From Halorubrum hochsteinianum (GTDB taxonomy: Archaea > Halobacteriota > Halobacteria > Halobacteriales > Haloferacaceae), in the NCBI RefSeq assembly GCF_023702125.1, contig NZ_CP098415.1:1364001-1428000 (forward strand): DNA of 64,000 bases, read 5' to 3'. Shown here in pieces: positions 4,896 to 62,542 of this stretch. Under the pieces are notes generated by a model. That model searched no databases, was not told where the DNA came from, and saw only the letters and a list, made by a program, of their open reading frames with translations. Position numbers and translations under genes: made by a program. Position 1 is the first letter of the stretch, and every line of letters begins with the position of its first letter.

Positions 4896-6758
4896 ATGTT
4901 CGATAAGGTTCTCGTGGCGAACCGCGGCGAGATCGCGGTCCGAGTGATGCGCGCCTGTGCGGAGCTCGGCGTCGACACCGTCGCCGTCTACAGCGACGCC
5001 GACAAACACGGCGGCCACGTCCGGTACGCGGACGAGGCGTACAACGTCGGGCCGGCGCGCGCGGCCGACTCGTACCTCGACGGCGAGGCGGTCGTCGAGG
5101 CGGCGCGCGCGGCCGACGCCGACGCGATCCACCCAGGCTACGGCTTCCTCGCGGAGAACGCCGACTTCGCGGCCCGCGTCGAAGCGGCCGACGGGATCAC
5201 GTGGATCGGCCCCGAGAGCGACGCGATGGAGCGCCTCGGAGAGAAGACCCACGCCCGCCGCGTGATGGACGACGCGGGCGTCCCGATCGTCCCCGGGACG
5301 ACGGAGCCGGTCACCGACGTCGAGGCGGTGACCGAGTTCGGCGACGAGTACGGCTACCCGGTCGCGATCAAAGCCGAGGGCGGCGGCGGCGGGCGCGGCA
5401 TGAAGGTCGTCGAGAGCGCCGACGAGGCCGCGGACGCGCTCGAATCGGCGAAACGCGAGGGGGAGGCGTACTTCTCGAACGACTCGGTGTACCTCGAACG
5501 CTACCTCAAGACCCCCCGCCACGTCGAGGTCCAGATCGTGGCGGACGACCCGGACGGGTCGGTGAGCGAGAGCGACGTGGTCCACCTCGGCGAGCGGGAC
5601 TGCTCGCTCCAGCGCCGCCACCAGAAGGTGATCGAGGAGGGGCCCTCCCCCGCGCTCTCCGACGAACTGCGCGAGCGGATCGGCGAGGCCGCGCGTCGGG
5701 GCGTCGCCGCCGCCGACTACACCAACGCCGGGACGGTCGAGTTCCTCGTCGAGGAGGACCCCGACCGCGACCCGTCGGAGCCGCTCGGCCCGGAGACGAA
5801 CTTCTACTTCCTCGAAGTCAACACCCGGATCCAGGTCGAACACACCGTCACGGAGGAGCTGACGGGGATCGACATCGTCAAAGAGCAGCTCAGGGTCGCC
5901 AGCGGCGAGGGCCTCTCCGTCTCGCAGGACGACGTGGAGCTTGAGGGGCACGCGATCGAGTTCCGGATCAACGCCGAGAACGCGGCGAACGACTTCCAGC
6001 CCGCCAACGAGGGGTCGCTGGAGACGTACGACCCGCCGGGCGGGATCGGGGTTCGCGTCGACGACGCGCTCCGGCAGGGCGACGAGCTGGTCACCGACTA
6101 CGACTCGATGATCGCGAAGCTAATCGTGTGGGCCCCGGACCGCGAGGAGTGTCTCGCGCGGTCGAAGCGCGCGCTCGCCGAGTACGACATCGACGGCGTC
6201 GTCACCATCGTCCCCTTCCACCGGCTCATGCTCGACGATCAGCGCTTCGTCGACGGCACGCACACGACGAAGTACCTCGACGAGGAGTTGGACGCCGACC
6301 TCGTCGCCGACGCGCAGGAGCGGTGGGGCTCCGAGACGGCGTCCGCGGGCGACGACGACGAGGAGGTGACGGAACGCGAGTTCACCGTCGAGGTGAACGG
6401 CAAGCGCTTCGAGGTCGAACTGGAGGAGCGCGGCGCGCCCGCCGTCCCGGTCCCGGAGAGTGGCGGCGGCGCGGGCGGCACCCAGCGCCCGCCGCAGGCG
6501 AAATCTGACGACGGCGGCGACGACGGGGTCGACGTCGCCGAGGGCGGCGAGTCGATCGACGCGGAGATGCAGGGGACGATCCTCTCGGTCGACGTGAGCG
6601 AGGGCGACGAGGTCGCCGCCGGCGACGTGGTCTGCGTCCTCGAAGCGATGAAGATGGAGAACGACGTGGTCGCCGAGCGCGGCGGCACCGTCGCGAGCGT
6701 CCACGTCGGCGAAGGCGACAGCGTCGACATGGGCGATGTCCTGATCGTGCTGGAGTAA
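4896..6758 (+). CDS. pccA: Acetyl/propionyl-CoA carboxylase alpha subunit (biotin carboxylase + BCCP)
   Basis: This 620-residue subunit carboxylates its own biotin using ATP and bicarbonate, then hands the carboxyl to PccB. The biotin carboxylase domain spans about residues 1-450 (start [20 protein letters not shown], Gly-rich ATP-grasp loop [12 protein letters not shown], catalytic [14 protein letters not shown]). An acidic, Gly-rich linker leads to a C-terminal biotinyl domain with EAMKMEN, the biotin lysine being about residue 586. ATG 4896 is preferred to GTG 4878 because the family starts at MFDKVL. Confidence 0.95.
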
Positions 6759-6798
6759 TCCGCCACACGCCGCGAGAACCCGTCTTTTCCACTCCGTC

Positions 6799-7051
6799 GG
6801 CGCGTGCCTGCGAGGCCGCCTCGCGGCCGAGCAGCACGCGCGAGGGAGTCGCTGGCGGCCGGAGCGGAGCGACGGCCGTCAGCGACGAGGCTGGGGAGGT
6901 GTGAGGTGCTGCCGCGGTGCGGAACGGGGCGGGAATCGAAGGGGCAGTCGCGAGGATGAAGCACGACGAAGCAAGCACCGCAGGAGCGAACGAAGTGAGC
7001 GACGAGGAGCGCAGGGAGTCGCGCGAGTCCTCGCGACTGGGGCTTCGGTGG
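6799..7051 (+). repeat. Dispersed three-hairpin element, copy D
   Basis: This 253-bp copy belongs to the five-member family described in the findings and is the only one whose putative sense strand is the plus strand. It starts GGCGCGTGCC 40 nt after the pccA stop and ends CTGGGGCTTCGG. Three hairpins are visible: an outer GCGCGTGC/GCACGCGC stem enclosing GGCCGC/GCGGCC, a 14-bp stem (6849-6887) with one G.U pair, and an 11-12 bp stem joining 6947-6958 with 7028-7038. A second GGGGCTTCGG terminus follows at 7090-7099. The rest of the gap to 7191 shows no gene. Confidence 0.8.
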
Positions 7052-7191
7052 TCTCGGTCAGAAAATAGATTTCGTCGCAGCGAGCGGCCGGGGCTTCGGC
7101 GGTCATGCCGGCCAGTGATCGATAATCGGCAACGTATTATCGAGGAGTTTCATCCGGAAAAGAATTTCATCGAGGGCGATCAACGGCCGGT

Positions 7192-7560
7192 ATGCCCTCC
7201 CCGCGTCGCGTCGTCGAGGCGTGGATCGCCCTCTGTCTCACCGTCGGGCAGCTCACGTCGTTTGCCGTCCGAACCGCGTCGTCCGTCTCGCCGACCCTCG
7301 AAGGAATAGCCGGACTCGCCGCTTCCCTCGCCGCCGCGCTCGGCCTGCTCCGACTGCGTCCCGAACTGGACATCGGACGGCTCTAGCGGTTCGCGTTCAC
7401 CGCCTGGGGCCTTCTCATCCTGATGATGGTCGCCTCGCTCGGCGGCCGACTGATCGGCGTCTCCTTCGACGCGTACGAGTCGTACTCGTTCCCGCTCGCG
7501 GTCGTGGTCGCACTCCTCATGGAACCCGTCTACGAGTCCGGGGCGCTGCCGTGGACGTGA
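7192..7560 (+). pseudogene. Membrane protein gene interrupted by an in-frame TAG
   Basis: The frame starts at ATG 7192 (MPSPRRVVEAWIALCLTVGQ) and meets TAG at 7384-7386. It then continues in the same frame for 57 more codons, through hydrophobic helices (AWGLLILMMVASLGGRL and FPLAVVVALLMEP), to TGA at 7558-7560. Read through, it would be a 122-residue protein with about four transmembrane segments. As it stands, only a two-helix 64-residue fragment is encoded. The coherent helices on both sides of the stop indicate a recently inactivated gene or a base-call error. No function is recognised. Confidence 0.6.
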
Positions 7561-8638: not shown

Positions 8639-8721
8639 CCGGCGTCTCGGGGTGACCCCCGCCCCACGGACAGTCCGGACGCCGCCGATTGCGACGCGAA
8701 CTTCTGACGCTACGTTGCTGT

Positions 8722-8738
8722 GGTGGTCTGAAACCACC
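8722..8738. repeat. Short inverted repeat downstream of the TRAM gene
   Basis: GGTGGT, five spacer bases, then ACCACC could form a 6-bp hairpin about 85 nt after the TRAM stop. There is no T-tract behind it, so a terminator role is only possible. The rest of 8639-8810 shows no gene. Confidence 0.3.
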
Positions 8739-8810
8739 GGACCGGATCGACGCGAACTCGAGTGAACTCATGCCCGTCCACTGCGACGCAGTCGCTTCTA
8801 CGGACACGAC

Positions 8811-9057
8811 CGCCGAAGCCCCAGCCGCGAGGACTCGCGCGGCTCGCTGTGGTCCTCAGTCGCTCACTCCGTTCGCTCCTTGCGGTCCTTGCTTCGCCGG
8901 GCTTCGTCCTCGCGGCTGCCCCTTCGAGTCCCGCCCCACACAGCACCGCAGCCTCACACCTCCCCAGCCTCGTCAGTCGGCCTCCGCTTCGCTCCGGCCG
9001 ACTGACTCCCTCGCGCGTGCTCCTCACGCCCTGACGGGCGTTCGGAGGCACGCGCCG
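8811..9057 (-). repeat. Dispersed three-hairpin element, copy A
   Basis: This 247-bp copy reads CCGAAGCCCC at its left end and CACGCGCC at its right end on the plus strand; the putative sense strand is minus. Its stems are perfect: AGCCGCGAGGAC with GTCCTCGCGGCT (12 bp), GTCAGTCGGCC with GGCCGACTGAC (11 bp), and CGCGTGC with GCACGCG enclosing ACGCCC/GGGCGT. It lies between two plus-strand genes, so the putative sense strand is antisense to both. A CDS-like frame crosses it but has no family resemblance. Confidence 0.8.
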
Positions 9058-18830: not shown

Positions 18831-19044
18831 TCGAAGCCCCGCACAGCCTCACGCCTCCCCAGCCTCGTCGGCGGTCCTCCGCTTCGCTTCGGACCGCCGA
18901 CTCCAGCGAGAATCGGAGATTCTCTGGCAGCGAGGGACACGGTCCCTCTGGCAACCGGGCTTCGCCCGACTGCCCGTGGCACGTCGCGCCACGCTGTCGC
19001 CCGTGCTGACTCGCGGCGCTCCGCGCAGCTCGCAGGCACGCGCC
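18831..19044 (-). repeat. Dispersed three-hairpin element, copy E (rearranged)
   Basis: In this 214-bp variant the left terminus CGAAGCCCC is joined directly to the CACAGCCTCACGCCTCCCC segment, so the first hairpin is missing. The central stem is perfect (GTCGGCGGTCC with GGACCGCCGAC). Between it and the right end lie extra small hairpins (GAGGGAC/GTCCCTC, CGGGC/GCCCG, GTGGC/GCCAC) absent from other copies. The putative sense (minus) strand begins 36 nt after the metX stop. The remainder of 18629-19079 shows no gene. Confidence 0.75.
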
Positions 19045-19079
19045 ACCGCTATACTCCCGTTCCCTCGAACGACGCTTCG

Positions 19080-44720: not shown

Positions 44721-44967
44721 GCCACCGAAGCCCCAACCGGGAGGACTCGCGCGGCTCGCTGTGCGCTTCGGTCGCTCACTTCGTTCGCTCCCTCCAGTGC
44801 TTGCGTCGCCGTGCTTCGCCCTCTCGGCTGCCCCTTCGAGTCCCGCCCCGCACCGCACAGCACCTCATGCCTCCCCAGCCTCGTCGGTCGCCCTCCGCGT
44901 TGCTCCGGGCGACCGACTCCCTCGCGCGTGCTGCTCGGCCGCAGCGCGGCCTCGCAGGCACGCGCCG
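44721..44967 (-). repeat. Dispersed three-hairpin element, copy B
   Basis: This 247-bp copy has the termini CCGAAGCCCC and GCACGCGCC. The central stem is perfect: GTCGGTCGCCC with GGGCGACCGAC. The right hairpin has CGCGTGC/GCACGCG around GGCCGC/GCGGCC. The left stem (AACCGGGAGGAC with GCCCTCTCGGCT) has three non-Watson-Crick positions, two of which are G.U on the minus strand. The putative sense strand (minus) starts about 45 nt after the RNase P RNA 3' end. The rest of 44613-45011 has no gene. Confidence 0.8.
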
Positions 44968-45011: not shown

Positions 45012-45353
45012 AGCGGACTGAGGGGAGTAAGCCCCCTTCGGTTCGTCCCGACATTCGGCTGAGCGTCCGTGCCGTGGCCGGACTACCTTGTGGCACGGAC
45101 TTGCACCGGCGAGGATTCGCCGTTCCATCCGTTCCCGCCCGTCCGTGGCGTGGCGGAGCCACGCGCCCTCTCCGGGTTAACTCCCTTCCCTCGCGGGTCG
45201 GTTCGCACGGATCATCGGTCGGGGCGGGGGGTGTCGTTGCTGTTCCAGCGCCAGCCGTCTCCGACTCCGGGCGTGTGCCCGGTCGCCTGTCCGGCCGGTG
45301 GGGGGACTTTCCTCATGCCGGAGGCACGGGAGTCGGGCTCCCTCTGTCCGGTT
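45012..45353 (-). ncRNA. rnpB: RNase P RNA
   Basis: The roughly 340-nt catalytic RNA that matures tRNA 5' ends. On the minus strand the CR-I/P4 5' motif GAGGAAAGTCC is at 45304-45314 and the matching P4 3'/CR-V motif GGGGGCTTACTC at 45025-45036. P1 pairs GGACAGAGGG (45342-45351) with CCCTCAGTCC (45015-45024) apart from one A.A mismatch, which fixes both ends to within a few bases. A CTTATT element at about 45371-45377, some 20-25 nt upstream, is a likely TATA box. Identification rests on these conserved core motifs in the right order. Confidence 0.93.
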
Positions 45354-62299: not shown

Positions 62300-62542
62300 C
62301 CACCGAAGCCCCAGTCGCGAGGCGGGCAGACGCTCGCTGTGCTCCTCGTCGCTCACTCCGTTCGCTCCTGCGGTGCTTACGTCGCCTCTGCCCGCCTCCC
62401 GGCTGCCCCTTCGAGTCCCGCCCCGCACAGCACGGCCTCACGCCTCCCCAGCCTCGTCGCTGGCGGTCTTCGCTTCGCTCGACCGCCAACGACTCCCTCG
62501 CACGCGCTCCTCGCGCCCGGTGGGCGCTCGGAGGCGCGCGCC
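62300..62542 (-). repeat. Dispersed three-hairpin element, copy C
   Basis: A 243-bp copy. The first stem is GAGGCGGGCAGA with TCTGCCCGCCTC (perfect, sequence unlike other copies). The second is GTCGCTGGCGGTC with GACCGCCAACGAC (one position G.U on the minus strand only). The third is a GCGCGCGC/GCGCGTGC type outer stem around GCGCCC/GGGCGC. A second left terminus CCGAAGCCCCAGTCGC lies at 62237-62252, identical to 62303-62318. The remainder of 62200-62615 contains only TATA-like elements. Confidence 0.8.

Follow-up and report, generated by a model that had tools for sequence, protein, structure and literature searches.

The 64-kb stretch of the Halorubrum hochsteinianum genome (3.06 Mb) analysed here, referred to below as the window, holds an element whose hairpin-rich body of about 250 bases is repeated at scattered sites between genes. 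This raises the question of which of its strands is the functional one, and whether that strand acts as RNA or as DNA. The boundaries of the copy at 6799-7051 (+) and its three stems, as originally predicted, proved to be real, with fold z-scores of -5.65 for the plus strand and -4.61 for the minus strand. Altogether, the window contains five copies, four of them intact and one decayed (Table 1), and their strands agree with the earlier assignment of one copy as sense on plus and four on minus.

Table 1. Coordinates in the window of the element at 6799-7051, its parts and the other copies.
Feature	Position	Strand	Remarks
Body of the noted copy	6799-7051	+	Sense on plus
Stem-loop P1	6800-6841	+	Tandem G.A mismatch conserved within the helix
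Stem-loop P2	6848-6886	+	Apex GC-GGA-GC with G.A/A.G mismatches; swapped between copies as a unit
Unpaired core GAGGCTGGGGAGGTGTGAGG, near-invariant	6887-6906	+
G-rich linker, variable	6907-6936	+	TGCGGT-like units; length differs among copies
P3	6937-7047	+	CGAAG-GGG-CAGTCGCGAGG pairs with CCTCGCGACTG-GGG-CTTCG; further helices inside
3' tail unit	7048-7102	+	GGGGCTTCGGCGG recurs at its end
Intact copy	8811-9056	-	Orthologous site empty in eight relatives, occupied in G020
3' tail region of the 8811-9056 copy	8690-8810 (approximate)	-	Unaligned to the empty sites
Decayed copy	about 18834-19045	-	P1, P2 and core retained; P3 lost; small hairpins inserted
Intact copy	44723-44966	-	RNase P RNA gene located about 50 bases upstream
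Intact copy	62300-62542	-

With the body at 6799-7051 as query, blastn matched at least 41 places in the same genome, with identities of 77-88% when the self-match is excluded. Allowing no more than one mismatch, the pattern of the 20-base core was counted 127 times in this genome (67 on the plus and 60 on the minus strand), and the same pattern read backwards occurs 0 times. Core counts range from about 15 to 195 across the other Halorubrum species, and the core was present in every Halorubrum genome searched. Outside Halorubrum it occurs patchily in a few haloarchaeal genera, one of them ranging from 0 to 141 copies, and the core is absent from most haloarchaea searched. Named records that share it are nearly all from Halorubrum, and the closest relatives of the window genome belong to one genus. 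Six haloarchaeal plasmids carry diverged or partial copies, no match to the element was obtained in the phage sequences searched, and a core match in Rhizobium (L128) was dismissed as a chance event. All 135 full-length copies that could be placed are intergenic, in either orientation, relative to genes predicted with a simple custom gene caller. The neighbouring genes show all four combinations of orientation (37, 35, 27 and 24 copies); because the orientation of these neighbours is mixed, a role as terminator or leader was dismissed. The bodies of the element alone make up about 1% of the genome, yet the literature searched on Halorubrum repeats yielded nothing specific and no description of it.

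The secondary structure was supported by RNAalifold, which recovered P1, P2 and P3 from 35 copies of the window genome. Over the whole structure in this 35-copy alignment, paired cells amounted to 97.6% versus 83.9% in shuffles, and cells in which both sides had changed numbered 263 versus 78. These two-sided changes affect 31 pairs, and the covariation score was 0.376, compared to 0.133 for shuffled alignments and at most 0.06 when the pairing partners were slid. The element therefore displays the covarying secondary structure expected of structured non-coding RNA families. It should be noted, however, that hairpins are exchanged between copies as whole units (see below), so that fewer compensatory events have arisen independently than the covariation among copies suggests. 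None of the Rfam covariance models gave a gathering-score match in the window copies, and for positions 6700-7200 no match was found up to an E-value of 10. Near-invariant sequence is found in the core GAGGYTGGGGAGGNGTGAGG and in the G-runs of P3, where there is also an internal GGG/GGG loop, and the several conserved G-runs suggest that a G-quadruplex is possible. C-GNA-G triloops close P2 in 77 of 122 copies and the inner P3 hairpin in 86 of 111, and the P1 loop is three bases long in 100 of 120 copies. In DNA, the C-GNA-G triloop is known to be a stable motif.

The strand preference had been proposed from wobble positions in copies B, C and D, six of which were said to form G.U on one strand and only one on the other. 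When P1, P2 and P3 of the four intact copies were recounted with strand-neutral pairing, 4 G.U and 2 A.C were found, with 2 more A.C in the inner part of P3; the ratio of six to one was not reproduced exactly, and the original tally alone is too small to carry weight. A larger tally of 110 distinct copies gave 76 G.U versus 23 A.C for the strand starting GGCGCGTGCC, distributed as 32:7 in P1, 14:6 in P2, 3:2 in P3a and 27:8 in P3b (binomial p-value of 8.5e-8, the copies being drawn from many genomes and not independent of each other). The inner helix P3c shows the opposite, with 1 G.U versus 37 A.C, and the A.C is conserved there. Moreover, C-to-T changes in the unpaired core (131/735, 17.8%) exceed G-to-A changes (21/2542, 0.8%). 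Since the C-to-T excess also occurs where there is no pairing, the G.U excess is not wholly a pairing signal, and part of it may reflect constraint on G. A cleaner strand test than the stem tally is provided by a P3 pair that is freely C-G (58 copies) or T-A (39 copies), for which the intermediates were T.G in 17 cases and C.A in 1 (p-value of 1.4e-4). Likewise, the strand starting GGCGCGTGCC carries 433 tandem G.A mismatches in P1 and P2 versus 10 of the mirror T.C/C.T type, and for all 129 of 129 copies it is the strand with the more stable fold, RNA and DNA parameters being in agreement. All four comparisons bear out the sense strand of the original prediction. The further step from tolerance of G.U to RNA is not secure, because folded single-stranded DNA shows the same preferences for G.T and sheared G.A, and the DNA energies agree; the strand starting GGCGCGTGCC may act as RNA or as single-stranded DNA.

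How the stems have changed can be read from orthologous copies. Among the loci compared, 34 locus pairs had both flanks in common, two of which represent the same locus twice. In most of the 18 aligned pairs, the P1 apex, P2 or the inner part of P3 had been swapped for a different, but still self-complementary sequence. For example, the copy at 8811-9056 and its counterpart in G020 share an upstream flank that is 97% identical as well as P1 and most of P3, which are unchanged, but P2 is a different hairpin; the replacement P2 is also carried by a third species and, within the window genome, by a different copy. An exact P2 is shared with another copy in 52 of 116 cases (a set that contains a few orthologous pairs), and P1 and P3 mostly differ. 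Where no replacement has taken place, conservation of the body can exceed that of its flanks (99.6% versus 94% and 98.8% versus 90% in orthologous pairs). A four-gamete test on exact module types, most of which are unique, revealed no case. Hairpin replacement is most likely the result of ectopic gene conversion from other copies, which explains these patterns best. Haloarchaea are polyploid, and ectopic gene conversion is plausible in such organisms.

Evidence on mobility comes from the copy at 8811-9056, whose orthologous site is empty in G026, G022, G016, G027, G028, G008, G015 and G018. In these genomes the flanking genes match, and between a few and about 90 bases separate the matched flanks. 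The inserted DNA also takes in a leader of about 25 bases and at least one tail unit. Alternatively, the empty site may represent a loss instead of a gain. In the intergenic region past the gene that ends at window position 6758, four relatives (L191, L195, L196 and L198) have copies in opposite orientation, which suggests that this region is an insertion hotspot.

In some species the body lies within a unit of about 440 bp that is bounded by terminal inverted repeats of 22-26 bp. Three unrelated loci of G015 carry copies that are identical over about 400 bp and end in the inverted repeats GANYGATAGCGGGAGTRNGTATTGCA. The inverted-repeat pattern was counted about 100 times in G015, 73 times in G003, 47 times in G005, 44 times in G012 and 0 times in the window genome, and such repeats are present in a few further genomes; for the window genome's own copies, flanking inverted repeats did not exceed a shuffled control. 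The core is enclosed by 15 of 17 inverted-repeat pairs in the loci examined, some of which were chosen for carrying the core and others for carrying the repeat. At the right ends of L215, L216 and L217 the terminal inverted repeats differ, though the three G015 interiors are almost identical; such locus-specific ends fit gene conversion of older copies as well as transposition. The outer flank of G015 copies is often T-rich (CTTTT before GATC). As regards target duplications, the longest words shared by the two flanks equalled those of a control with shuffled pairing.

No helper gene or transposase for the element was found by searches for Y1, TnpB, RVT_1 and inverted repeats. The Y1 transposase domain (PF01797) has no match in the window genome, and comparison of the element with the four TnpB loci of its own genome and with 10 Y1-transposase loci from relatives revealed no similarity, so that a Y1/REP-type or TnpB partner was rejected; a more distant relation to IS605-type palindromes may exist. 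Spread by reverse transcription in the manner of SINEs was rejected as well, as none of 39 Halorubrum genomes had a match to PF00078 (RVT_1). An autonomous partner with the same terminal repeats, of the kind that supplies the transposase of a MITE, would be longer than the element; no inverted-repeat pair spanning more than about 570 bp was seen among the places listed for G015.

About a third of the copies have a TATA-like box resembling TTTATAAA upstream of the body, at -21 to -14, and about two fifths have one downstream of it, at around +29 (or +21). Such boxes are present whatever the direction of the neighbouring genes, and therefore appear to belong to the element. Judged by the usual archaeal spacing, a sense transcript from the upstream box would begin inside P1 and would not include its 5' half. 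Read in reverse, the downstream box would by that spacing give an antisense transcript beginning at the 3' end of the body. The 3' tail unit comprises about 50-68 bases with GGGGCTTCGG again at its end; it is locus-specific and sometimes occurs in tandem.

With about even confidence, we favour the view that the element is a non-autonomous, palindrome-rich mobile element of haloarchaea, marked by a single-strand fold, intergenic spread and whole-hairpin replacement. This view is supported by its copy number on both strands, its patchy high-copy distribution and its exclusively intergenic placement; by the empty site, the identical G015 units with their inverted repeats and the enclosure of the core by most repeat pairs; by hairpin replacement with matched arms and the sharing of P2 across unrelated loci; and by the strand-polar fold with its C-GNA-G triloops and tandem G.A mismatches. 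It is weakened by the failure of our searches to find a transposase, a target duplication or an autonomous partner, by the lack of inverted repeats around the genome's own copies, and by G015 ends that fit gene conversion; a transcribed RNA would be equally consistent with the invariance of the unpaired core and with the constant placement of the TATA-like boxes. In such an element, the body would be kept foldable as a single strand of one polarity, starting GGCGCGTGCC, with three stem-loops arranged around the G-rich unpaired core, and it would spread into intergenic sites regardless of gene direction. Resident hairpins would be replaced whole, most likely through ectopic gene conversion with other copies as donors, and their arms would stay matched. 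The folded strand would probably be DNA that becomes exposed on mobilisation or replication, and an enzyme supplied from elsewhere may act on it.

Several known repeats resemble this element in part. The palindrome-associated transposable elements (PATEs) of Haloquadratum walsbyi, whose palindromes resemble those of IS605-type transposons (PMC3119063), are likewise haloarchaeal, non-coding and numerous, with divergent copies, palindromes near the ends and no target duplication found (PMC3119063). In common with the copies of the window genome, though not with the G015-type unit, they lack terminal inverted repeats (PMC3119063). Unlike PATEs, the element has no match to the TnpB or Y1 loci examined; its body also combines three stems with a long near-invariant core, and in some species it lies between inverted repeats. 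The small mobile repeats of H. walsbyi, such as SMR-A of about 110 bp, which often lie within PATE/IS605 elements (PMC3119063), resemble the G015-type unit in having terminal inverted repeats, no target duplication, too little length for a transposase and no known mobiliser. This unit, however, measures about 440 bp and encloses a structured body, and the copies of the window genome lack inverted repeats. Bacterial REP/BIME and ERIC (IRU) sequences are also high-copy, extragenic, imperfect palindromes with arm-matched stem changes and no encoded protein, but REP units are 20-40 bp long and often linked to a Y1 transposase (PMC2817692, PMC3733652), whereas the archaeal body of about 250 bases contains three dissimilar stems along with an unpaired core, and the window genome is without Y1. 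Lastly, omega RNA and the sense-overlapping RNAs of IS200/IS605 (TnpB) share with the element strand-polar stem-loops, occurrence in haloarchaea and a tie to mobile DNA, but the element matches none of the genome's four TnpB loci in sequence and has no associated gene. By the tests made, it is comparable to PATE, SMR and REP/ERIC sequences, but a clean member of none.

A different explanation would be a multi-copy family of structured non-coding RNAs, in which sense-strand transcripts form P1-P3 about the G-rich core, and the covariation and the tolerance of G.U result from selection acting on this RNA. We regard this as possible, though unlikely. Covariation of the three stems, the G.U and T.G excesses, the near-invariant unpaired core and the fixed positions of the TATA-like boxes are all in line with it. 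However, the upstream box, 14-21 bases before the body, would be too close for a full-length sense RNA, the loops are GNA triloops and not tetraloops, an A.C is conserved in P3c, and Rfam gave no match; the patchy presence and the mobility also argue against it, and the covariation is inflated by hairpin exchange. That haloarchaeal genomes would each harbour more than 100 self-spreading loci of a new large structured RNA (about 250 nt with a G-rich core), its hairpins staying both diverse and functional through continual exchange of cassettes among loci, is rather doubtful.

A chromosomal DNA site, kept by the host for a nucleoid, condensin-like or transcription-ending factor as proposed for some REP/BIME sequences, appears improbable, since a double-stranded site predicts no strand asymmetry and ratios of 76:23 and 17:1 were observed. 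The strictly intergenic location, the conservation of the body above its flanks in some orthologous pairs and the presence in every Halorubrum genome searched would fit such a site, but copy numbers of about 15 to 195 within one genus, the empty site in close relatives and the absence of a preferred orientation to genes would not. We give very little credence to the view that the structure has no current function, with repeats homogenised by gene conversion and by palindrome-perfecting replication errors and covariation as a by-product. Hairpins do travel as units, and tails and outer flanks are free to vary, but the G-rich core is retained across genera, and the arms of P3, about 90 bases apart, remain matched with a 17:1 bias towards T.G. 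Whichever explanation applies, orthologous copies with swapped, arm-matched hairpins serve as a natural experiment in which gene conversion and selection on structure can be told apart. Covariation is usually taken as strong evidence for a functional RNA; here, it can in part be attributed to whole-hairpin exchange, which calls for caution in RNA discovery methods that pool paralogous repeats.

Some minor observations concern the surroundings of individual copies. The RNase P RNA gene (45016-45348) is encoded on the same strand (-) as the copy downstream of it. Just downstream of the copy at 6799-7051, at about 7380-7388 (+), a small ORF has the sequence CTCTAGCGG, which includes an in-frame TAG, in contrast to CTCTGGCGG in the G020 orthologue; this gene may be broken in the H. 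hochsteinianum genome. Finally, small perfect hairpins flanked by GCCAG (e.g. GAGGGACCGTGTCCCTC and GAGAATCTCCGATTCTC) are inserted in or beside several copies, namely at about 18880-18990 (-) in the window, in the L037 insert, in the 5' flank of L020 and at about 2430-2560 of L199, and they appear to form a distinct family of very small palindromic insertions.
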